Positions 2,482 to 13,427 of a stretch of DNA of 26,359 bases are shown one piece after another (within the stretch, counting starts at the first letter, position 1; each line of letters starts with the position of its first letter). This stretch comes from a virus, in the IMG/VR virus record IMGVR_UViG_3300024317_000015, positions 1 to 26,359 of that record; one strand, 5' to 3'. Made by a program: the position numbers and the translations under genes. Under the pieces are notes generated by a model, which saw only the letters and a list, made by a program, of their open reading frames with translations, did no database searches and was not told the DNA's origin.

Positions 2482-3057
2482 TTATTTCACCGGGCGGATT
2501 GAATTTGATCCATCATTATCCCGGTACGTATTCTCTGGCGTCATCCCACATTCCTTTTTCAAGTGTCCGATAGCGGCGGGCATCCCGTCAAGGGAAAGTG
2601 TATATTCATACTTGTTGTTATCCATAGCCCAAAGTCGCACGCGTAATTGTTTTCCCGGTTTATCGAGTAACTTGTTGATTAGCACGTCACCATACAACAC
2701 TTTTACCGTGTTCTTGGTATATGGACCAAGATCAACTTCTAGCGCAGGATTACTGTCCACGCGGAACAATGCGGCAGGAGCGGTATGGATACCAAGCGTA
2801 TCTCCAAGATAACTATCCGCCACAAACCAGACAGTTAAATACCGTTTACCGTTGAACTTCCGCAAGTCCTTATACTCACTTTGCGATTCGTATGTCTTAC
2901 ATATAACTTCTATCTTCAATCCGCTCCCGGTTCCAATCACAAACTCCTTCCGCTTCTCCGTCATGCTATCAACCTCTGTGCCATATCTCCACGCACCAAA
3001 CTCTTCAGCGTGGACCGGCAGCGCCAATAGCAAACCAACAATCAATGCGCGGAACAT
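2482..3057 (-). CDS. Secreted periplasmic protein, TagO/VasI-like fold possible
   Basis: A 191-residue protein. Residues 1-17 (MFRALIVGLLLALPVHA) form a clear Sec signal peptide with an A-x-A-type site before EEFGAW. The mature part keeps two Cys (EVICKTY and KKECG) likely to pair. The layout (Trp near the start, DSMTEKR, an ALFRVDSNP strand, then LSLDGMPAAIGHLKKEC) recalls the TagO/VasI-type small beta proteins of Proteobacteria. I rate that resemblance weak to moderate. The ATG at 3057 overlaps the end of the RadA-like gene by 16 bases, so the two are probably co-translated. Its codon and base use look more AT-rich than the neighbouring ATPase, which suggests acquisition. Confidence 0.65.
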   Translation of the reverse strand: MFRALIVGLLLALPVHAEEFGAWRYGTEVDSMTEKRKEFVIGTGSGLKIEVICKTYESQSEYKDLRKFNGKRYLTVWFVADSYLGDTLGIHTAPAALFRVDSNPALEVDLGPYTKNTVKVLYGDVLINKLLDKPGKQLRVRLWAMDNNKYEYTLSLDGMPAAIGHLKKECGMTPENTYRDNDGSNSIRPVK

Positions 3058-3656
3058 ACGAAACCTCTCTCTGTCATCTCCAAAGGTAGCCATACCCCGG
3101 CTACCCCAAACCGGTTCTTCTCCGTCGCGATGTATCTTGGCGGCCCTCTACCCACCTTCACCGTCACGTCAACCAGATGCTCGATTGCCCGTGCGCCCGC
3201 GTGTATCCCACCCTTCGTCTCATGGCACACTAACACCACAGTCGTCCCCCAACGGCGAGCGTGCGCCACGGCTACCTTCACCGCGTCCAACGCCTTACCT
3301 TCGACCAGTTGCAGCGAGTCAAGGATCACCAAGGGTGAATTGACCGCTTCCCGCAACGCCTCCCCTATGTCAGCCTCGGCCAACAAGTCCATGTCATCCC
3401 TCAACCCCAACCGGATCACCCGATCGGCAACCGCCGACACGTCCTCCTCCAGGCAGACGTACAGCGATCCCGGCACCCCGGCCGCCGCCTGCGCCAATGC
3501 CGTAGACTTGCCCGCTCCAGGCTCTCCATGCAGGAGAACCACGGACCCGCCTACGAACCCACCTCCCAGCATCACATCGAGCCAGGGGACGCCCGTAGCC
3601 TGTCTGGTCAACCTCCCCCGGCTGACCGCTTCTCTAACCTTTAACATGCTGCTCAC
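3042..3656 (-). CDS. RadA/Sms-like RecA-family ATPase, short form
   Basis: A 204-residue RecA-fold ATPase. The Walker A is GEPGAGKST (residues 44-52), the Walker B ends in PLVILDSLQ (Asp about 113), and the TEKNRFG segment (about 178-184) contains the KNRFG motif typical of RadA/Sms. Bacterial RadA is about 450 residues with an N-terminal zinc finger and a C-terminal Lon-like domain. Both are missing here, so this is only the motor core. RadA drives branch migration in recombination; a phage core-only version probably serves phage DNA recombination or replication. The start is GTG at 3656 or ATG at 3647; neither has a strong ribosome-binding site. Confidence 0.85.
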   Translation of the reverse strand: MSSMLKVREAVSRGRLTRQATGVPWLDVMLGGGFVGGSVVLLHGEPGAGKSTALAQAAAGVPGSLYVCLEEDVSAVADRVIRLGLRDDMDLLAEADIGEALREAVNSPLVILDSLQLVEGKALDAVKVAVAHARRWGTTVVLVCHETKGGIHAGARAIEHLVDVTVKVGRGPPRYIATEKNRFGVAGVWLPLEMTERGFVCSAH

Positions 3657-4503: not shown

Positions 4504-4788
4504 TCACCTCGCATACGGCTGATGGAGCCATTGACCCAACGGCCAAGTCTGCCCGGTGGTATAGCAATGGGTTCGCCCGCCGATGTGCCCCGGCTCCCCT
4601 GGAAACAGCGTGTTCTCGTACCACTCCAAGTCGGAGCGGAACTGCGGAGCGTAATAGTCGCCCTCGTCGGCCGGCTTGTTAACGACAAGCTGGCTCCGGT
4701 CTAGCGGCTTCCTCGCCCAGGCGGGGACGTGTTCCACCGTGTAGCGATGCACATACTTGGCGCAGGCTTGCTGGAATGTAGGTCGCAT
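4504..4788 (-). CDS. Hypothetical protein, first gene of leftward early operon
   Basis: A 94-residue product starting MRPTFQQACAKYVHRY. The ATG at 4788 has an excellent GGAGG with 5-base spacing; the longer frame to 4845 would run through the operator and promoter and is rejected. Residues include the VNKPADEGDYYAPQF and WYENTLFPGEP segments; no recognised domain. It lies directly downstream of a perfect TTGACA -35 and the palindrome CAAACTCGGTTTG, so its expression is probably repressed by the protein binding that palindrome. Five further genes follow with short gaps or overlaps. Confidence 0.65.
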   Translation of the reverse strand: MRPTFQQACAKYVHRYTVEHVPAWARKPLDRSQLVVNKPADEGDYYAPQFRSDLEWYENTLFPGEPGHIGGRTHCYTTGQTWPLGQWLHQPYAR

Positions 4789-4797
4789 TTCACCCTC

Positions 4798-4810
4798 CAA
4801 ACTCGGTTTG
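4798..4810. promoter_or_regulatory. Operator-like palindrome CAAACTCGGTTTG (distal copy)
   Basis: CAAAC and GTTTG are inverted around TCG. The site lies between the predicted promoter (4824-4853) and the ribosome-binding site (4794-4798) of the leftward operon, a classic repressor position. The identical 13 bases occur three times in the array at 6223-6312, plus one variant. Confidence 0.75.
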
Positions 4811-4823
4811 ATCGTCGCCCAGC

Positions 4824-4853
4824 TAATCTGGTGACAGGTTGGCAAACTGTCAA
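4824..4853 (-). promoter_or_regulatory. Leftward early promoter
   Basis: On the minus strand a perfect TTGACA (4853-4848) is followed after 17-18 bases by CAGATT/AGATTA (4830-4824), a weak -10. Initiation near 4818 would place the palindrome 4798-4810 just downstream of the start point. The weak -10 suggests a regulated promoter. Confidence 0.55.
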
Positions 4854-5027
4854 CCAGGGAAAATGGTTAACGCCGTAATCCCCCGTATCGCTGCTGTTCA
4901 ACCCACACCATAGAAAATCTGCGACCAATCGTAAACCTGTCGCCTCTATCGGGTACCTAGACACGCACCCCTGCCATGCGCTACACGCGTAACCCCTACC
5001 TCGGGGTTAAAATGATCAGGGATAACC

Positions 5028-5102
5028 CGGAGAAATAGACCTCGGAGAAATGGATGTGACAAATATACGTCAGAGAAATGAACAGACCAACCTCGGAGAA
5101 AT
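5028..5102. repeat. GGAGAAAT direct repeats, four copies
   Basis: The motif cGGAGAAAT begins at 5028, 5043 and 5094, with the variant caGAGAAAT at 5071. All are in the same orientation and spaced 15, 28 and 23 bases apart. They lie in the non-coding stretch 4860-5192 between the divergent promoters. A near-inverted AACCCC...GGGGTT (4991-5008) and GGGATAACC (5019-5027) precede them. They look like protein-binding sites or iterons; no binder is known. Confidence 0.6.
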
Positions 5103-5192
5103 GGTCCCGGTTCACGGGGAATTCTGGCTAGTCTTGACAGGTTCGCACCATGCCACCATGTCATCCGCGCCACAGGTTGAAGGAGAAGACCG

Positions 5193-5465
5193 ATGGATAA
5201 CGCGCCGAGTGCCCCGACCCAGGTAGCAGCCCTGGATGTCGGGGAGATCTACACGATGGTTAAATTCATCCCCAGCAACACGCCTAACCTGACCAACGCT
5301 ATTAAGGAGGCACGGAAGAGTTTGATGCAGCAACTATCGTCCGTGATGGCCCGCGCACGCGTGAAAGAACCAGAATCCGTCTACGCTATGCACACCGTTC
5401 ACTCGTTCACCCGGTCATACGATGTGGTGGTAACAGGCGTGGTCATCAGGGAACTCGGTTTGTAA
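5193..5465 (+). CDS. Orphan protein A of a paralogous pair
   Basis: A 90-residue protein with no family I recognise. AAGGAGA stands 6 bases before the ATG at 5193. TTGACA at 5134-5139 could be its -35, but no good -10 follows. The sequence divides into a variable start, a helical basic middle (ITKEARKSL-like region, residues about 30-50), and a beta-rich end (VYAMHTVHSFTRSYDVVVTG then VVIREL). The end aligns with the protein at 5925-6188: both have R-A-R, P-x-x-x-Y-x-x-H-x-x-H-x-F-T and D-V/L-V-V. The two genes flank a cluster of DnaA boxes and palindromes, so a role in replication or its control is plausible. Confidence 0.7.
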   Translation: MDNAPSAPTQVAALDVGEIYTMVKFIPSNTPNLTNAIKEARKSLMQQLSSVMARARVKEPESVYAMHTVHSFTRSYDVVVTGVVIRELGL

Positions 5466-5470
5466 GGGTT

Positions 5471-5560
5471 GGGGATAACTTGGAAGATCGGGGATAACTC
5501 TGGGGATATGTGGATAACTCCACCTAAGCGGCACAGACTCTGAGCCAGGGTGTGGATAAC
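5471..5560. other. DnaA-box cluster, possible replication origin
   Basis: Two perfect DnaA boxes, TTATCCACA, lie on the minus strand at 5509-5517 and 5551-5559. Two related GGGGATAACT copies stand at 5471-5480 and 5490-5499, and TGGGGATATG lies between them. Four to five related sites in 90 bases all face the same way. TTATCCACA is the established high-affinity box of bacterial DnaA; an origin function here is inference. Confidence 0.65.
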
Positions 5561-5568
5561 TTTGACCG

Positions 5569-5598
5569 TTGACAGGCTCCGTTCCTGCCGGCTACGGT
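5569..5598 (+). promoter_or_regulatory. Possible rightward promoter beside the DnaA boxes
   Basis: A perfect TTGACA (5569-5574) is followed after 18 bases by TACGGT (5593-5598), only 3/6 to the -10 consensus. It would transcribe through the palindromes toward the gene at 5925 with a leader of over 300 bases, or make a short untranslated RNA. The first -35 base lies 10 bases past the last DnaA box, so DnaA could repress it. Confidence 0.35.
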
Positions 5599-5626
5599 CA
5601 GCCTGAGTAACCCTGGTTGCGATCAA

Positions 5627-5665
5627 CGTCGCACATTGTCGCACCGCGTGACGCATATTGTCGCA
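5627..5665. repeat. ATTGTCGCA direct repeats
   Basis: ATTGTCGCA occurs at 5635-5643 and 5657-5665, with the related ACGTCGCA at 5627-5634. A related GGTGCGAC/GTCGCACC inverted pair follows parB at 7638-7660. They may be sites for the same protein. Confidence 0.5.
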
Positions 5666-5690
5666 GCCTTACCCCAAACGAGCACTGGAT

Positions 5691-5814
5691 CACGCATGCG
5701 TGCCATTCACGGCTGGAGGATGACCAGATATGACGTGGTCGTGGCTGCCGGAGTTATGGCCATAACCCCGTTACATCAGAGGGTTGCATAAACTACGTGA
5801 CACGCGTCGCGTGT
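5691..5814. promoter_or_regulatory. Cluster of perfect palindromes in the intergenic region
   Basis: Three separate symmetric sites lie in the gene-free stretch 5466-5924: CACGCATGCGTG (5691-5702), GTTATGGCCATAAC (5753-5766) and ACACGCG-T-CGCGTGT (5800-5814). An AT-rich patch with TATAAAA follows at about 5879-5888. Such spacing is typical of a regulatory or replication region. Which proteins bind is unknown. I see no gene in 5466-5924. Confidence 0.6.
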
Positions 5815-5924
5815 GTCAGTTAACCTATTTTTGTCAATGTGCAACGTTGACGCACCCACTTCCGCGCACATTTCAGGAAAATATAAAACGGAGATTGCAT
5901 AGGGATTTTACGGGGACGCAGATC

Positions 5925-6188
5925 GTGAACCATGGTTCTAGCCTTGCCTCGGCTATTGCTGGCCTCGAACCGGGGACATCCATGTGCTGCTCCCGCTTTA
6001 TCGCAGCAAACTTAGTTTCGAGCGTGCTTCTGTACCGCACGAAGCGCAGCTTGACCAATACCCTGACCAAAGCGGTTTCCCGCGCGAGACAGAGGAATCC
6101 TAGTGCTATATATCATATACATTCACTGCACAATTTTACGCCACAGTTAGACCTAGTCGTCATAACAGTTGTGGTCAGAGATGAATAG
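5925..6188 (+). CDS. Orphan protein B of a paralogous pair
   Basis: An 87-residue protein read from GTG 5925, preceded by ACGGGGACG. The frame is open back to 5784, but this start gives the same length as its paralogue at 5193-5465 and aligns from the first residues. Shared positions include FI/FI, the R-K/R-S-L helix, A-R-A-R/S-R-A-R, Y-x-M/I-H-x-V/L-H and the closing V-V-I/V-R-D/E. Sequence identity is low to moderate, so the pair is old. Unknown function. The upstream half of the gene is AT-richer than neighbours. If the ATG at 5979 is used instead, the product would lack the N-terminal third. Confidence 0.6.
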   Translation: MNHGSSLASAIAGLEPGTSMCCSRFIAANLVSSVLLYRTKRSLTNTLTKAVSRARQRNPSAIYHIHSLHNFTPQLDLVVITVVVRDE

Positions 6189-6222
6189 GGTTGACACGCC
6201 TGCCGCCCGGTACTCCCAACAG

Positions 6223-6312
6223 CAAACTCGGTTTGGTGGTACCGCAAACTCGGTTTGGTGGTACGTTTGGCGGTACGGCAAACTCGGTTTGGCGACACGG
6301 CAAACTTGGTTT
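6223..6312. repeat. 22-bp iteron-like array of CAAACTCGGTTTG
   Basis: CAAACTCGGTTTG occurs at 6223-6235, 6245-6257 and 6279-6291, and as CAAACTTGGTTT at 6301-6312. The starts are 22, 34 and 22 bases apart. The 34-base gap is one unit plus a truncated TTTGGCGGTACGG unit. Each unit also carries a GGTACC/GGTAC-type box. The 22-bp period, two helical turns, resembles plasmid replication iterons. The same palindrome lies at 4798-4810. The array lies upstream of the gapR-parB promoter. Confidence 0.85.
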
Positions 6313-6367
6313 CTGTGGAGTTCCCCGGATGAGTTCAAGTTACTACTTCTTACATAGCGATTTCAGC

Positions 6368-6397
6368 TTGACAGACTGTCCGCTACCGTACTCCTAT
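6368..6397 (+). promoter_or_regulatory. Promoter of the gapR-parB operon
   Basis: A perfect TTGACA (6368-6373) is followed after 18 bases by TCCTAT (6392-6397), a weak -10. Initiation near 6404 would give a short leader to the gapR-like ATG at 6426. The iteron-like array ends 56 bases upstream of the -35, so its binder could activate here while repressing the leftward operon. Confidence 0.45.
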
Positions 6398-6425
6398 GTT
6401 CGTCATACTGTTGGAGTACGACCAC

Positions 6426-6683
6426 ATGGTGGAACGTCTTGTCGGTTCGTTAGACAACATACGTGAATCGCTACGCGCAGTAATAGAACGAATTGAACGG
6501 TTAGAGGCTGACAAAGCCGAGATCGCAGCCGACATCGCTGAGGTCAAAAAGAAAGCCAAAAGCGACGGCTTCGACATCAAGGTTATCAACACACTAATAC
6601 GCGAACGCCGTAAGGACGCGGACCAGGTTGAGGAGTTCAACATCGTCCTCGACACCTACCGCCGCGCGTTGGAGGCGCTGTAG
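6426..6683 (+). CDS. gapR: GapR-like DNA-binding protein (DUF2312)
   Basis: An 85-residue protein with the GapR/DUF2312 pattern: a long coiled N-terminal helix (IERIERLEADKAEIAADI, about residues 21-38), then the AEVKKKAKSDGFDIKVINTLI segment and a C-terminal RRKD...EEFNIVLDTYRRAL helix. In Caulobacter GapR binds overtwisted, AT-rich DNA and helps replication and gyrase. A phage copy may organise phage DNA or mimic the host protein. I place the start at ATG 6426 (GGAG at 9-base spacing), not the upstream 6396, because it gives the usual GapR length. It is the first gene of a rightward operon, 35 bases before parB. Confidence 0.85.
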   Translation: MVERLVGSLDNIRESLRAVIERIERLEADKAEIAADIAEVKKKAKSDGFDIKVINTLIRERRKDADQVEEFNIVLDTYRRALEAL

Positions 6684-6718
6684 GCGTCTCATCCCCCCAC
6701 GTCTGAGGAGGCGTAAGT

Positions 6719-7621
6719 ATGGATTATGATACCCCGTCGATCGACTACCAAGCCGAGTTTGAACCGGGCAGCCTTAAGGATGTCATGGCCGACATCGGTG
6801 CCAAGCCCAACAACGGCATGCACATGGTCCCCCTCGACAAGGTCTATGCGCCGCCTGGACTCAACGTCCGCGTCCGCAATGCAGCCTATGAGGACCGGAT
6901 CGAAGATCTTACCAAATCAATTATGGCCAACGGCTTCTACCTACACAAAGCTTTGCCTGCCCAAATCATCAAGCTGGATGGCGAGAGCGTGGTCGCGATC
7001 ACGGGTGGCTTCACCCGCTATGCCGCCGCCCTGCTCGCGCGGGACCGGGGCTACCCGATCGTCGCGGTGCCTGTGATCCTGCGCGCCGCTGGCGGCAACG
7101 ATCTTGACATCCAGAGCGCCCTGTTCGTTGACAACACCGGGGCACCCCTGATCCCGTGGGAGAAAGGGCTTATCGTCAAACGGTTAGTCGGTGGCGGCTA
7201 CTCGAAAAAAGAGATCCGCGAGAAGCTCAGCATCTCTGACACCTATTACGAGAAACTCTTGTACCTCCACAGCCTGCCGATGTCGTTGCAAAAGCTGGCA
7301 ATGGAGGATGTGATCAAGGCCAATCGCATTATCAGTACGGCGAAACGTGTAGGGGTGGACAAGGCATACGACGTGCTGACAGCGGGCCGCCCCAAGCGCA
7401 GCGGCGTCACCGCTCGCACCCTGACGGCAGCGATCGACTACGCGGTCAACCTGCCCACCGATGGCATCGGGTTCCTGTCCCGCTGGCGCAGCGGAGACGC
7501 TGAAGCGGTGGAAGAGGTGAACGCCACCTTGCGTAAGCCACGCAAGCCCCGCGCCCCGGCCGCTTCCCGCACCCGGAAGCCGCGCCGCAAGAAAGCCGAA
7601 GCCACCGAAATCGACCTGTAA
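6719..7621 (+). CDS. ParB-like nuclease/partition domain protein
   Basis: A 300-residue protein. Residues about 36-120 form a ParB/Spo0J/sulfiredoxin-type N-terminal domain, with GGFTRYAAALL (about 96-106) in place of the G-x-x-R-x-x-A-A motif. An HTH follows at about 161-183 (YSKKEIREKLSISDTYYEKL), and the tail (from about 272) is a very basic, Pro/Arg/Lys-rich DNA-binding tail. GAGGAGG stands 7 bases before ATG 6719. No ParA is visible, so it may act alone, as phage ParB-like regulators, nucleases or CTPase-type clamps do. It is co-transcribed with gapR, and the iteron-like sites upstream are candidate targets. Whether it functions in partition is unproven. Confidence 0.85.
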   Translation: MDYDTPSIDYQAEFEPGSLKDVMADIGAKPNNGMHMVPLDKVYAPPGLNVRVRNAAYEDRIEDLTKSIMANGFYLHKALPAQIIKLDGESVVAITGGFTRYAAALLARDRGYPIVAVPVILRAAGGNDLDIQSALFVDNTGAPLIPWEKGLIVKRLVGGGYSKKEIREKLSISDTYYEKLLYLHSLPMSLQKLAMEDVIKANRIISTAKRVGVDKAYDVLTAGRPKRSGVTARTLTAAIDYAVNLPTDGIGFLSRWRSGDAEAVEEVNATLRKPRKPRAPAASRTRKPRRKKAEATEIDL

Positions 7622-7680: not shown

Positions 7681-7899
7681 ATGACCTACGAGATTATGAC
7701 TTACGGCAGCGAGCGGAAGTTCGAGGCAGGGGATTCAGTTATCCGCGCCGTGCCCCGGATAAACCGTGACGGCGGCATCACCAAGGTTGTCGTCACCCAC
7801 ATGAACGGGGAAAGCCAAGCGCTGGAGCGTCTGATCACAGACATCAGAGGCAGGTACACGGGGTCGCTCTACTCGACCTGGGAAACCGGTAATGGGTGA
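7681..7899 (+). CDS. Small hypothetical protein (72 aa)
   Basis: A 72-residue product starting MTYEIMTYGSERKFEAGD. An AGGA stands 8 bases before ATG 7681; the frame is open back to 7639, but that start runs through the parB hairpin. It is a mixed charged, probably beta-rich protein (VVVTHMNGESQ) and has no recognised domain. The stop overlaps the next start (ATGGGTGA), so the two are coupled. It lies between parB and the integration genes. Confidence 0.6.
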   Translation: MTYEIMTYGSERKFEAGDSVIRAVPRINRDGGITKVVVTHMNGESQALERLITDIRGRYTGSLYSTWETGNG

Positions 7900-8287
7900 T
7901 GAAGGAGTTTGTGCATCCCTTAGTGATACGCACATCATGGACACCAACACCGGGCGGATTGTCGAAGTACGACGGCAGCCCTCGGGATATCGGATTTGGA
8001 AGGCGTGGACGGCGTACCACAAGGCGAACCCGGAGGTATACGAATGGTTTGTTCGGCTAACCTTCCATAAGATCAATAGGGGGTTCAAGCGACAGTCCGC
8101 TGACTTTATAATGCACGTCGTCAGGTTCGAGATAGAAGACGTGAACCCAGAGTCAAGTGACAAGTACAAGATCTGCAACGATTACGTCGCCTTCTATGCT
8201 CGCCTGTTTGCGGAAGAGTACCCCGATCAAGCCGGGTTCTTCCGATATCGTCAAAGCGTGGCCGATCAGTTCTTCGGTCCACTGTGA
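7892..8287 (+). CDS. Conserved phage-type hypothetical protein
   Basis: A 131-residue protein (or 116 from ATG 7937). It resembles an uncharacterised phage protein type with an aromatic start (KAWTAYHKANPEVYEWFVRL), a middle VVRFEIEDVN segment and a late ICNDYVAFYARLFAEEYPDQ ... FFRYRQS signature. I know the pattern only from unnamed phage proteins, so no function is given. It overlaps the previous gene by 8 bases and is followed 7 bases later by the excisionase-like gene. Confidence 0.7.
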   Translation: MGDEGVCASLSDTHIMDTNTGRIVEVRRQPSGYRIWKAWTAYHKANPEVYEWFVRLTFHKINRGFKRQSADFIMHVVRFEIEDVNPESSDKYKICNDYVAFYARLFAEEYPDQAGFFRYRQSVADQFFGPL

Positions 8288-8294
8288 GGTTACC

Positions 8295-8489
8295 ATGAGT
8301 GACAAGGTTGACGGAAAGCGGGCTTGGCGTGTGAACCCCTGGCGGGAGGAAGTGGGCGGGATAAGTCGAAACTTCGTCTACCGCCTGATCAAGCGTGGCG
8401 AACTGAAGACCGCGAAGCTGGGAGCCATCCGTGTGATCCTGACCCCGCCGCAAGAGTTCCTTGAATCCCACCAAGCGGAGGACCGGTGA
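8295..8489 (+). CDS. Excisionase-like HTH protein
   Basis: A 64-residue protein. Residues about 22-58 (GISRNFVYRLIKRGELKTAK, then LGAIRVI) form the winged HTH of the MerR/AlpA/excisionase type: helix, turn, a basic recognition helix and the short RVILTP wing. GAGG sits close before ATG 8295. A protein of this size and fold encoded 460 bases from the integrase gene most likely directs excision or regulates integration, as established for lambda Xis- and P4 AlpA-type proteins. It could instead be a transcriptional regulator of the same fold. Confidence 0.8.
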   Translation: MSDKVDGKRAWRVNPWREEVGGISRNFVYRLIKRGELKTAKLGAIRVILTPPQEFLESHQAEDR

Positions 8490-8829: not shown

Positions 8830-8959
8830 CGAACGTGCAGGAAACGGCGACAGTATCAATGCAAGACAGGCACTAGAGGCAATCAAGTTGCATGTACAAG
8901 CCCTTGAAGCTGAACTAGGTAATCCTGAAAAGAGCGACACCTCACCGCTATCCGCGTAG
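8768..8959 (+). CDS. Small helical hypothetical protein (63 aa)
   Basis: A 63-residue product starting MNYANITTRLHQIRRATRAI. ARQALEAIKLHVQALEAEL is a clear amphipathic helix, possibly a dimer coil. GGAG stands about 13 bases before ATG 8768, a poor spacing. The ORF overlaps the end of the previous gene (62 bases) and the 3' end of the opposite-strand integrase (12 bases), so convergent transcripts meet here. It is plausible rather than certain. Confidence 0.5.
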   Translation: MNYANITTRLHQIRRATRAISERAGNGDSINARQALEAIKLHVQALEAELGNPEKSDTSPLSA

Positions 8960-10111
8960 TCGAATCACAGCCGCCGGCTCATCAAACGACTTCATAGACG
9001 CCCGTACAATGTCGTCGGTCCCGGTCGCGATCGCTGCCGCGTAATGCCGTTCGATCTGACTCGCGCTGGTATCGTGTAGCTTCGCTACTAGTTGGACAGG
9101 CAGCCCGTTCAACAATTGGGACGTGATGTGCGTGTGCCGTAGTGCGTATGAGGTTATGAGTCCCCGATCCTCGCCGATCGCTTCTACAATCCGGGTGAAC
9201 TTCCAAGTGTGATGGCCGGTACGCCAACCATTACCGGGTATCAACGGTTCGCTCTGCGCCTTACCCGCACTCACCACCCTCAACCTATTAGCCAGCCCAA
9301 CGGGTATCGGCACAATCACCGGCACCAGTTTCTTGTTTCGGCCTTTCTTCGATGCCGGGATCAGCAACCTGTCGCCCATCAAATCTTTTACCTGACACTT
9401 GGCGACCTGTGAGATGCGTGCCCCCGTCACCGCGAGAACCTCGACCACCAATCCAAAATCATCCCCGCGAGCCGCCTGTACCAGCCTCGCCACCACGTCG
9501 TCCGACAGCACTACGTTGTTCGCCACCCTTGCACCGGGCAGTGCCGACAGACCCACCTTCCACGGGTGCCGGCTCAGCCTCGGGTCCGCGTCAGCCGCGA
9601 GGTTTAAGACCGCCTTCAGGATGACGGCTAACCGGTTGACCCCTGATGCGGCCAACCCTCTCTCCACCAACCCGTCCCGCCACACACTCAACTCCCCGGC
9701 TCCCAGCAGCGCTACAGGGCGCTTCAACATCGCGTCAGTCAGGTTAAGCCGCAGCCGGGTTGCATTGCCCTTGTCGCCGCCCCTCGCCCGCAGATTGGCC
9801 TCGTATGCCTGCACCACGTCATCCAGGGTCAGAACCTTCGGGCCGTCATCGTCACCCCGACCAAGCTGCAACGCGGCTTCCCGCGCCTGGGCAAAGGTCA
9901 TGGTATCCTTGCCGTCAGCCCGCCGCTCGTCATCCGCCGCCGCGATACGCTTGATCGCGTTGCCGCCCTTCCCGTCAGCTAACCTGACCGACCATGTGCC
10001 GGCCCCCTCTATCCTTCGATACCCCAGGCTCACTCCACCTGATAGGGGCTGCCAGTACGGTTTGCCTCGAACCGCCAGCCGCATCCGCGCCGTTTTCGTC
10101 TCTATCGCCAT
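8948..10111 (-). CDS. int: Tyrosine integrase
   Basis: A 387-residue tyrosine recombinase. Start codon ATG 10111 follows AGGACGGGAC; the frame is open to 10162. An arm-binding region (about 1-90) and a core-binding SAM-like domain (about 93-195, LTLDDVVQAYEANL) precede the catalytic domain. The catalytic Arg lies in VTGARISQ (about 232), Lys in SKKGR (about 255), Arg in SYALRHTH (about 325), His in LHDTS (about 346) and the nucleophile Tyr in ERHYA (about 357). The usual His of H-x-x-R is Tyr here (SYALR), a variation seen in some alphaproteobacterial integrases. It integrates the phage into the host at an attachment site I cannot locate. Confidence 0.93.
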   Translation of the reverse strand: MAIETKTARMRLAVRGKPYWQPLSGGVSLGYRRIEGAGTWSVRLADGKGGNAIKRIAAADDERRADGKDTMTFAQAREAALQLGRGDDDGPKVLTLDDVVQAYEANLRARGGDKGNATRLRLNLTDAMLKRPVALLGAGELSVWRDGLVERGLAASGVNRLAVILKAVLNLAADADPRLSRHPWKVGLSALPGARVANNVVLSDDVVARLVQAARGDDFGLVVEVLAVTGARISQVAKCQVKDLMGDRLLIPASKKGRNKKLVPVIVPIPVGLANRLRVVSAGKAQSEPLIPGNGWRTGHHTWKFTRIVEAIGEDRGLITSYALRHTHITSQLLNGLPVQLVAKLHDTSASQIERHYAAAIATGTDDIVRASMKSFDEPAAVIRLRG

Positions 10112-10410
10112 GTCCCGTCCTATGTCCCGGTCAGCCTGAAACCGCATGGTACAGCCTGACACTGTATCTGGTCAACAACGTGAGGGTTTTCAACCGCCTG
10201 TAGCGATTATGCCAGGGCATAACCACCACATGATGTCCCGTCAGACGCTGTTCTACGGCGACACGCATTAGCCCGTGCACAGACATTATCTCAACCATAT
10301 CAGGTACTTACCGACACCTCCGGACCGGCTGTCCCGGCCCGTGTCCCGTCGAGCTTTTGGTTGACGGTTTTCAGGAGGCGAGTCAGCCTGTCGCCAAAGG
10401 GAGCCGCGAC
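10112..10410. promoter_or_regulatory. Integrase upstream region: TGTCCCG repeats and a palindrome
   Basis: No gene is visible in this roughly 300-base stretch. TGTCCCG occurs five times on the plus strand around it (about 10111, 10122, 10234, 10330 and 10342), with repeated GTCAGCCTG-like words. The perfect palindrome TTATGCC-AG-GGCATAA stands at 10207-10222. TTGACG at 10361-10366 could be a rightward -35. Integrase arm sites or a regulator's operators are possible. An attP core cannot be identified without the host junctions. Confidence 0.5.
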
Positions 10411-11246: not shown

Positions 11247-11364
11247 TTAGTCAGCCCATATGTCAGGGGGAGCGGAAAATGGATTACACGTCACACCCAT
11301 GTCAAGGGATGAAATGGTATATTCGGCTGGTTGCAATCTCCCTGACAGGCGGGACTTTGTTCGC

Positions 11365-12594
11365 GTGATCGTGCTTCAAGCCACGACCGGGCGGCTCTAT
11401 CCGAGCGCGGCGCAAGAGCGGTCGATGGCGCGAATCGGCGGCCAGTGTCGCGCCTTGTGGAACCATTGGCTCGCGGTGAGCCGGGATCGCTACACGGCTG
11501 AGGGCAAGTTCGCCTTCCATGCCGAAATGAGCGCCGCCCTCCCGGCGATGCGGAAGGAAGAGCGCTACGAGGGGTTGCCGAGCCGTGCCGCGCAGATGAC
11601 GGTGCAGAAGCTCGACCGAGCGCTGCGCGAGTGCGGCAAGCGTGCCACGGCCCGAAAGGGCTTTCCGCGGTTCAAGCGCCGCGACGATCGCTGCGACGCT
11701 TTCCAGTTCGTCGGGCGCGAGCTCCGCGTCGAGCCGGGCCGGGTCAAGCTGCCGACGCTTGGCTGGCTCCGGGTGCGAGGGTTGCGCGTTCCCGATGCCG
11801 CTCGGCTTGTGCAGGTGACGGTGCGCCAGGATCGGGGCGGCTGGGCAGTGGCGCTTCAGATTGAAGCTGCCGCGCCGCTCTATCCTGCGCCGCTCGCGTC
11901 CGCTGTCGGGATTGACGTTGGTTTGACCAACCTGATTGCGCTCAGCGACGGCACTAAGATAAAGGCTCCACGGCTCGGTAGACGACGTGCCGGGCGTCTG
12001 CGGAGGCTTGAACGACAGAAAGCACGGCGGCGCAAGGGCAGCGTCAACCGCCGCCGTACCGTGGCACGCCTTAATCGCGAGCATGCCAAGCTCGGCGCAT
12101 GCCGAAAAGACTTCACACACAAGCTCAGCCGCGAGTTGATTGATCGGCACGAAGGCGTTGCTGTCGAGACGCTACGGCTGAAAGGCTTGATGCGCACCCG
12201 GCTGGCGAAGTCGTTTGCCGATGCCGGACTTGCTGAATTTCGCCGCCAGCTTGCCTATAAGGCGACATGGTCCGGGCGCACGTTCTGCGAAATGCCGACC
12301 TTCCAGCGCAGCACGGGTGTCTGCCCTGGCTGCGGGCTTATCGGCCCGAGACTGGCGCTGGGCGTTCGCGCTTGGTGCTGTACAGGCTGCGGTGCGATGC
12401 ACGATCGCGACGTAGCCGCCGCTCAGGTGATCCTGATCGGCGCGGTAGGGCGAGTGACGCCCGAACCGGCCGGCGAGAGCCGGCGAAAGCGAGGCGCTGT
12501 CGCCATGCGGCGAGCCCAGGCTTCGGCCCGGATCGCTCACGGCGAGCCACCTACGAATGATGCTGATGCTCGTGTCACGAGGTCATCCTTGTGA
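11365..12594 (+). CDS. tnpB: TnpB, RNA-guided endonuclease of IS200/IS605
   Basis: The start is chosen at GTG 11365 to give VIVLQATTGRLYPSAAQE, the usual TnpB opening; this yields about 409 residues, normal for the family. The frame reaches back to 11260. Motifs are intact: RuvC Asp in VGIDVGLTN (about 184), Glu in VAVETLRLKGL (about 268), zinc ribbon CPGCG ... CTGCG (about 320-342) and Asp in HDRDVAAAQ (about 349). TnpB proteins cut DNA guided by an omega RNA from the element's right end, next to a TAM; they are the ancestors of Cas12. The C-terminal tail after about residue 365 is long and Arg-rich. A catalytically competent enzyme is therefore likely. Confidence 0.9.
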   Translation: MIVLQATTGRLYPSAAQERSMARIGGQCRALWNHWLAVSRDRYTAEGKFAFHAEMSAALPAMRKEERYEGLPSRAAQMTVQKLDRALRECGKRATARKGFPRFKRRDDRCDAFQFVGRELRVEPGRVKLPTLGWLRVRGLRVPDAARLVQVTVRQDRGGWAVALQIEAAAPLYPAPLASAVGIDVGLTNLIALSDGTKIKAPRLGRRRAGRLRRLERQKARRRKGSVNRRRTVARLNREHAKLGACRKDFTHKLSRELIDRHEGVAVETLRLKGLMRTRLAKSFADAGLAEFRRQLAYKATWSGRTFCEMPTFQRSTGVCPGCGLIGPRLALGVRAWCCTGCGAMHDRDVAAAQVILIGAVGRVTPEPAGESRRKRGAVAMRRAQASARIAHGEPPTNDADARVTRSSL

Positions 12595-12838: not shown

Positions 12839-12893
12839 AGACTTTCTCCTACCTCGATTGCTATGATAACCGTTGTCTTTCGAGGAGAAGACA

Positions 12894-13427
12894 ATGGCCC
12901 AAATCAAATTACTACCTCCAGCAGCGTATCTGCACGCTTGTTTTATCTATAAACCAGAAACTGGGGATCTGATCTGGCGTAAAAGGCCGCTCGATCATTT
13001 TGCTGACGCTCGCAATTGGGCACGATGCAACACAATGTTAGCGGGAAAACGTGCGGGAAGTTTTACGATATCCAGCCATCGAGTTGTTCTGCTTAATCAA
13101 ACCCCCTACCTCGTCCATCGGATTGCCTGGAAAATGATGATCAATGAAGAGCCGCCCGATATAATAGATCACGTTAACGGTGTCCCTTTTGACAACCGAT
13201 GGGCTAATCTTCGAGCCGCCACAACAACCCAGCATATTGGTAACCAACGTATCCATTCAACCAACACGTCAGGTCATCGAGGTGTTTATCTTCATCGGCA
13301 ACAGAAGAAGTGGGTAGCGCAATTAGGTAGACGATACCTTGGCATATTCAACAGTCTAGAATCTGCCGTAGCGACTTACGACGCTGCGGCACACAAACAT
13401 TTTGGAGAATTTTATAGCAAGAGGTGA
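12894..13427 (+). CDS. HNH-AP2 homing-type endonuclease
   Basis: A 177-residue protein. VHRIAW (about 74) and IIDHVNGVPFDNRWANLR (about 90-107) form the HNH nuclease motif (paired D/H and N residues). The C-terminal segment (TSGHRGVYLHRQQKKWVAQL, then YLGIFNSLESAVATYDAAAH, about 125-170) is an AP2 DNA-binding domain. GAGGAG before ATG 12894 sets the start. The domain order is that of phage homing-type endonucleases. It stands opposite to the leftward late genes, and its TGA shares the palindrome TGATCA with the stop of the gene at 13428. It is AT-richer than its neighbours, suggesting separate arrival. Confidence 0.93.
   Translation: MAQIKLLPPAAYLHACFIYKPETGDLIWRKRPLDHFADARNWARCNTMLAGKRAGSFTISSHRVVLLNQTPYLVHRIAWKMMINEEPPDIIDHVNGVPFDNRWANLRAATTTQHIGNQRIHSTNTSGHRGVYLHRQQKKWVAQLGRRYLGIFNSLESAVATYDAAAHKHFGEFYSKR

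Follow-up and report, generated by a model that had tools for sequence, protein, structure and literature searches.

A candidate ParB/KorB/Noc-type operator cluster in the early region of a temperate Casjensviridae-like phage

The DNA analyzed here (the window) is the entire 26,359-bp IMG/VR record IMGVR_UViG_3300024317_000015 and is therefore probably a genome fragment. Its genes lie in a Casjensviridae-type order: two early blocks abut at a divergent junction, the leftward block first and then the rightward one, which includes a gene for a ParB-like protein; late genes, again leftward, follow. Related contigs used for comparison included G1 (G001; 55,493 bp), a close relative colinear with the window from position 4786 on, mostly at 92-95% identity; G2 (G002, L010; 28,636 bp), a close relative with 66-88% identity to the window; and G3 (G003, L024; 34,557 bp), a divergent syntenic relative whose ParB is 53% identical. 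The named comparison phages were the Burkholderia phages AH2 (Ahduovirus) and BcepNazgul (Nazgul), Carli, Erythrobacter phage R22L (L029) and Chi. Gene order together with portal, terminase, PolA, SSB and exonuclease is shared with AH2, BcepNazgul, Carli and R22L, placing the phage in Casjensviridae on the basis of order and core proteins rather than formal taxonomy, although the ParB proteins of these named phages are merely 24-36% identical to that of the window. A tyrosine integrase and an excisionase-like HTH gene bear out the temperate lifestyle proposed in an earlier note on this DNA. The same note had seen no Rep or helicase, which proved to be an effect of the fragment: the 55-kb G1 contig encodes PolA, an 817-aa primase (Prim-Pol, PriCT, DUF5906), a DEAD-box helicase, SSB and exonuclease, and replication genes thus sit outside the window. 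The host is probably an alphaproteobacterium, judging from the presence of GapR and the hosts of relatives.

Table 1. Features of the early region and lysogeny genes, in window coordinates.
Feature	Position	Strand	Basis and conservation
Exact palindromic site CAAACTCGGTTTG	4798..4810	+	Just downstream of putative leftward early promoter; kept at G1 position 69; G3 equivalent AAACTAACTTT
TTGACA hexamer, putative leftward early promoter	4848..4853	-	Sequence, hexamer only
CGGAGAAATG(G) direct repeats, divergent intergenic region	5028..5104	+	At 5028, 5043, 5071 (weak), 5094; kept in G1 (314, 329, 381) and G3 (812, 827, 869)
DUF7609 gene 1, 90 aa	5193..5465	+	PF24582 / phrog_6647, Pfam E 1.8e-11; G3 orthologue 52% identical
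DnaA-box cluster	5470..5561	+	Perfect TGTGGATAA at 5509, 5551; near copies at 5470, 5489, 5501
Promoter-like TTGACA-N18-TACGGT adjoining DnaA boxes	5569..5598	+	Kept in G1 and G2; putative function
Two ATTGTCGCA repeats, 22 bp apart (5634, 5656)	5634..5665	+	Kept in G1; one exact and one degenerate in G2
Perfect palindrome CACGCATGCGTG	5691..5702	.	Palindrome count vs shuffles
Perfect palindrome GTTATGGCCATAAC	5753..5766	.	Palindrome count vs shuffles
DUF7609 gene 2, 87 aa, GTG start	5925..6188	+	Pfam E 7e-9; G3 orthologue 66% identical
Perfect palindrome GAACCATGGTTC	5927..5938		Within first codons of DUF7609 gene 2
Degenerate site CAAACTTAGTTTC within DUF7609 gene 2	6007..6019	+	Same codons in G3: AAACTTAGTTT
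TTGACA hexamer, putative promoter upstream of array	6191..6196	+	Sequence
22-bp array, putative ParB operator/loading cluster	6223..6313	+	CAAACTCGGTTTG at 6223, 6245, 6279; CAAACTTGGTTTC at 6301
Putative gapR promoter (TTGACA 6368) and inverted repeat CGTACTCC/GGAGTACG (6388-6395/6413-6420)	6368..6420	+	Sequence of window, G2, G3
gapR-like gene	6426..6683 (ORF may start 6396)	+	PF10073 E 4.6e-22; start preceded by GGAG is 6426
ParB/KorB/Noc-type protein, 300 aa, proposed site binder	6719..7621	+	PHROG ParB E 5.8e-23
Site CAAACTCGGCTTG, 1 mismatch, first parB codons	6749..6761	-	G3 has AAACTAACTTT there
Excisionase-like HTH_17 gene	about 8288..8489	+	PF12728 E 2.6e-5, under curated cut-off; phrog_66 E 0.017
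Tyrosine integrase	8948..10162	-	phrog_1 E 1.5e-26; PF00589

The interval 5019-6312 had been read in the earlier note as a candidate replication origin or phage-plasmid maintenance region. The direct repeats, DnaA boxes, palindromes and 22-bp array invoked there are real and lie where they had been placed, and most exceed chance under Markov nulls. About 537 bp of this 1.29-kb interval are coding and specify two paralogous DUF7609 proteins, approximately 30% identical to each other, that had been missed; the interval is therefore not mainly non-coding. The DUF7609 AF2 model was confident (pLDDT 90) and gave no match in the PDB at E <= 0.001, and tblastn against phage records likewise gave none; resemblance to an Alba/SpoVS/MinE-like fold, at a Z of about 5 only, was discounted as evidence. 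The GGAGAAAT direct repeats take the form CGGAGAAATRG at 5028, 5043 and 5094, the copy at 5071, CAGAGAAATGA, being weaker; three copies with at most one mismatch are present in the window against 0.35 expected. Three perfect palindromes of at least 12 bp compare with 0.41 expected in 1,294 bp, a count reached in none of 200 shuffles. An AT-rich patch is present as had been claimed but is weak, the richest 100 bp (about 6099) having 59% AT and lying inside the coding frame of the second DUF7609 gene.

Leftward and rightward early genes face away from each other across about 4845-5193, and the rightward genes run from the DUF7609 pair through gapR and parB to the excisionase-like gene. A sigma-70 consensus scan returned a single weak match, no better than shuffles, and no significant promoter. 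The gapR- and parB-like genes reported to follow the region were confirmed by profile matches (Table 1). The inverted repeat CGTACTCC...GGAGTACG spans the gapR ribosome-binding site and is also present in G2 (about 394-426) and G3 (about 2015-2055), with a longer stem in G3 (CCGGTACTCC/GGAGTACCGG) and in degraded form in G1; it could possibly form a hairpin hiding the ribosome-binding site on read-through transcripts.

The AF2 model of the window ParB is of moderate confidence (pLDDT 80) and its best PDB fold match was KorB of plasmid RK2 (8qa9, E 1.2e-7), followed by ParB and Noc. A profile search agreed, yielding Noc/ParB matches (Noc E 4e-6), and membership of the ParB/KorB/Noc family, with a predicted ParB/Srx N-domain and HTH, is thus supported. 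In the region of the CTP-binding motifs (GxxR and N..E), residues G97, R100, A103, N139 and E148 are invariant in nine relatives, whilst the canonical GERRxRA is not exactly kept. In line with the lack of a visible ParA already remarked upon, no AAA_31 match was found among seven related contigs, several of them perhaps incomplete. A profile scan of the genome contigs with the ParB alignment gave no match. In G2 the middle segment of parB is partly duplicated just downstream of the intact gene (1713-1859).

Upstream of gapR-parB, the 22-bp array consists of four units at spacings of 22, 34 and 22, each 22-bp unit holding a 13-bp near-palindrome CAAACTCGGTTTG or, at 6301, its variant. There are three units in G1 (one 22-bp unit fewer) and one exact copy in G2. 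These units had been called iterons, a term that probably does not hold: near-palindromic sites of the same family occur beyond the array as well, and they resemble operators or parS more than Rep iterons. The form CAAAC-N3-GTTTG occurs five times in the window and five times in G1, with log10P of -8.0 and -7.6 compared with a null best of about -4.5. In G3 the motif reads AAACT(A/T)A(C/G)TTT instead (AAACTnAGTTT in the palindrome scan), yet three site positions are kept, at the leftward junction, in the codons of the second DUF7609 gene and at the parB start, which argues for one DNA-binding protein with the site drifting along with it. The window-lineage motif has an asymmetric TCG centre and lies mostly in one orientation (9/10 CAAACTCGG in G1), a pattern that seems odd for a symmetric ParB site and counts against assignment to ParB, as does the single exact copy in G2. 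The dispersed G1 copies are not beyond doubt as true sites: some fall within genes, where codon pairs (ACC GAG TTT GA), a feature that the Markov null ignores, may account for them.

Palindromes with 5-bp arms were scanned across the family and counts compared with Markov-2 nulls, in which shuffles reached a log10P of about -5. The P values are conditional on best-motif choice and the null lacks codon structure, but the enrichments in sister phages are too large for either to matter. GAAGTnACTTC has 23 exact copies in R22L (log10P -38) and 15 in BcepNazgul (log10P -24), whilst Carli has 25 of GGAAA-N3-TTTCC (log10P -54) and 28 copies of GGAAATnATTTCC. The motif of the AH2 clade is ACAACAnnnTGTTGT, and as a partial out-of-sample test the AH2 motif then recurred in G4 (G004), G6 (G006) and G7 (G007) at 9, 15 and 12 copies against 1.2, 1.1 and 0.45 expected; G4 additionally has three copies of AAACTnAGTTT, unlike its sister phages. 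In a cross-scan every motif was enriched mainly within its own lineage, the window and G3 motifs overlapping because these two are related. No enriched palindrome was returned by the scan for Chi, a member of the same family with no ParB match. None was returned either for G5 or for three unrelated phages that encode ParB homologues, which counts against the ParB assignment, as do the AAACTnAGTTT copies in G4. Spacing is more even than random in Carli (CV 0.39) and R22L (CV 0.58). The dispersed sites are mostly intragenic (25 of 28 in Carli), ruling out for Carli a role as promoter operators only, whereas R22L sites prefer junctions (10/30 intergenic, P 4e-6).

In the window, R22L, Carli, BcepNazgul and AH2, sites precede the gapR-parB or gp27-parB unit. 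GapR was rejected as the site binder since AH2 and BcepNazgul have sites and GapR was not found at the locus in either. R22L and BcepNazgul have both a common palindrome and a common R-Y-L-x-D stretch in the recognition helix. Among R22L ORFs common to site-bearing relatives and missing from Chi, ParB is the only evident DNA-binding protein present in most of these relatives, the others in this shared set including virion assembly proteins. A search of the open-access literature gave no account of scattered palindromes, or of what ParB does, in Casjensviridae. Enriched palindromes confined to the early gene region were also observed in two unrelated ParB-encoding phages, TTACT-N5-AGTAA (11 copies) in Xylophilus phage Lumi (L034) and TACAAATnATTTGTA (9 copies) in Agrobacterium phage Milano (L036).

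On balance, the most likely reading is that of an early control region in a temperate, Casjensviridae-like phage, where the phage's own ParB binds the sites of an autoregulated ParB/KorB/Noc-type operator cluster. Specific binding is suggested by the statistical association and by lineage-specific co-variation. The array would then be a cluster of 13-bp near-palindromes bound by the protein encoded just downstream; ParB dimers, bound beside the promoter of gapR and parB and loaded there as a clamp, would repress ParB's own operon. Through sliding, and from further sites, ParB would also have an effect on the DNA of the phage comparable to that of KorB on RK2 or of Noc on the chromosome. The DnaA-box cluster beside the promoter-like sequence would represent a lineage-specific addition.

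That cluster is genuine, with five boxes within 120 bp, all on the same strand, against a maximum of four in 30 Markov-2 shuffles, and with six boxes in G1 and eight in G2, likewise above null, the latter head-to-tail in 10-bp phase. It may link the operon, or replication, to the host's DnaA. A reading compatible with ParB autoregulation, plausible though less likely, is that the region is, or lies beside, the phage's replication origin, where host DnaA or the phage PrimPol-type primase would recognize the DnaA cluster, the GGAGAAAT array or both, with opening of DNA close by. Direct-repeat arrays in the divergent early intergenic regions of R22L (7809-8059; five 24-bp CCCCTCTGTGACGAC repeats beside AT-rich 13-mer repeats, an origin-like arrangement) and AH2 (about 10 repeats, 5752-5943) are consistent with this, as is the 98.7-100% identity of the window and G1 over 5536-6135, coding and non-coding alike, between flanks of 77-97%. 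This block may, however, reflect either constraint or recent recombination. The boxes, whose conservation in relatives the earlier note had made a test, gave a mixed outcome, being kept in G1 and G2 but absent from G3, which retains the genes, the GGAGAAAT repeats and the sites; in the named phages examined neither the cluster (R22L, Carli, BcepNazgul, AH2 and Chi) nor the DUF7609 pair was seen, and the divergent junction of BcepNazgul has no repeat array. Furthermore, no AT-rich unwinding element adjoins the boxes, AT content being 41-53% around boxes and palindromes, and GC skew, proposed in the earlier note as a check, merely tracks gene orientation in the window, G1, R22L, Carli, BcepNazgul and AH2. 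To describe the region as a control region that may also act as an origin is fair, whilst the plasmid-maintenance part of the original proposal is weak given that no ParA was found and an integrase is present.

That part would make ParB and its sites the partition centromere of an extrachromosomal prophage as in N15, and the ParB fold and the clustered and dispersed sites do recall the four N15 IR sites (PMC7205306). We regard it as very improbable: no ParA was found in the seven related, perhaps in part incomplete, contigs, no Rep was found among the ORFs scanned, the integrase (with the excisionase-like gene) argues against a plasmid prophage, and the same ParB is present in BcepNazgul and Carli, phages with no evident lysogeny genes (no integrase annotated within the 50 kb retrieved). 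The asymmetric motif centre, the prevalence of one orientation in G1, the sites at both divergent early promoters and the temperate gene set would suit stoperators or operators of a non-ParB lysogeny repressor, dispersed 13-bp sites in one orientation that silence transcription in the lysogen. The stoperators of the mycobacteriophage L5 lysogeny repressor are the comparison for such sites. This seems improbable, as no CI-like repressor was present among the window proteins scanned and as BcepNazgul and Carli, which lack an annotated integrase in the sequence fetched, are dense in sites that are mostly intragenic and, in Carli, evenly spaced. Least probable is a sequence accident, in which the repeats are functionless leftovers of duplication or codon bias. 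One array unit has been gained or lost between the window and G1 and common dicodons explain some coding copies, but such an accident fits poorly with the very large motif enrichment of the sister phages (log10P from -24 to -54), the lineage specificity and the conserved place upstream of gapR-parB.

Among known systems, Noc, the ParB paralogue in nucleoid occlusion in Bacillus, has no dedicated ParA and many dispersed palindromic sites. The window system resembles it in its ParA-less ParB-fold protein, its dispersed palindromes and its sequence match, but Noc acts on the host chromosome and the membrane. KorB, a ParB-family CTP-clamp repressor, recognizes a short silencer sequence that may sit close to a promoter or at a distance from it, and moves along DNA as a sliding CTP clamp (PMC11790492). 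KorB-like action is the leading idea for the window ParB, by analogy with its best fold match; the window system differs in belonging to a phage rather than a plasmid, in that no KorA partner was identified and CTP use is putative, and in that the phages have as many as 28-30 sites per 50 kb, mostly in genes. With SopB-centromere partition as in N15 and F (PMC7205306) the window shares inverted-repeat sites and a ParB-type protein encoded by a phage, but no SopA/ParA was found and there is an integrase in place of a plasmid prophage; a ParA-type ATPase partner, as in ParABS partition, was not found in the seven contigs noted above. Iteron plasmid origins share tandem repeats at 22-bp (two-turn) spacing and DnaA boxes in the same region, whereas the unit here is a near-palindrome occurring elsewhere in the genome, with no adjacent Rep, no Rep initiator being found among the neighboring ORFs scanned (part of the G1 ORFs). 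Such site clusters should not be taken for plasmid iterons.

An orphan "ParB-like partition protein" without known role is encoded by many phages, and the lineage-specific dispersed palindromes described here are candidate binding sites for phage ParB in at least five phage lineages, making that role directly testable. Tentatively, and with less confidence than for the window itself, a ParA-less KorB/Noc-like ParB in Casjensviridae and related phages may coat or organize the genome from dozens of approximately evenly spaced palindromes, the site of each lineage being matched to the recognition helix, for silencing, DNA organization or competition with the host nucleoid; in the window it would be paired with GapR and autoregulated through the array. 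If true, CTP-clamp gene control as known for KorB and Noc would extend to phages.

No Rfam match was obtained for the window at gathering level, or for 4700-6800 up to E 0.5. Short tandem repeats are present near the left end of the record at 1-120 (GGCAGGCACAGCCGACGAGG type) and 1891-1999 (CCTCGACCGTC, five copies), and the leftward early operon includes a gene for a KaiC/RadA-like P-loop ATPase (3042-3656, minus strand). A gene at 11260-12594, called TnpB/OrfB-like from its sequence, gave no tblastn match in G1, G2 or G3 and is a probable lineage-specific insertion; it is followed by an HNH-like ORF (12873-13427).
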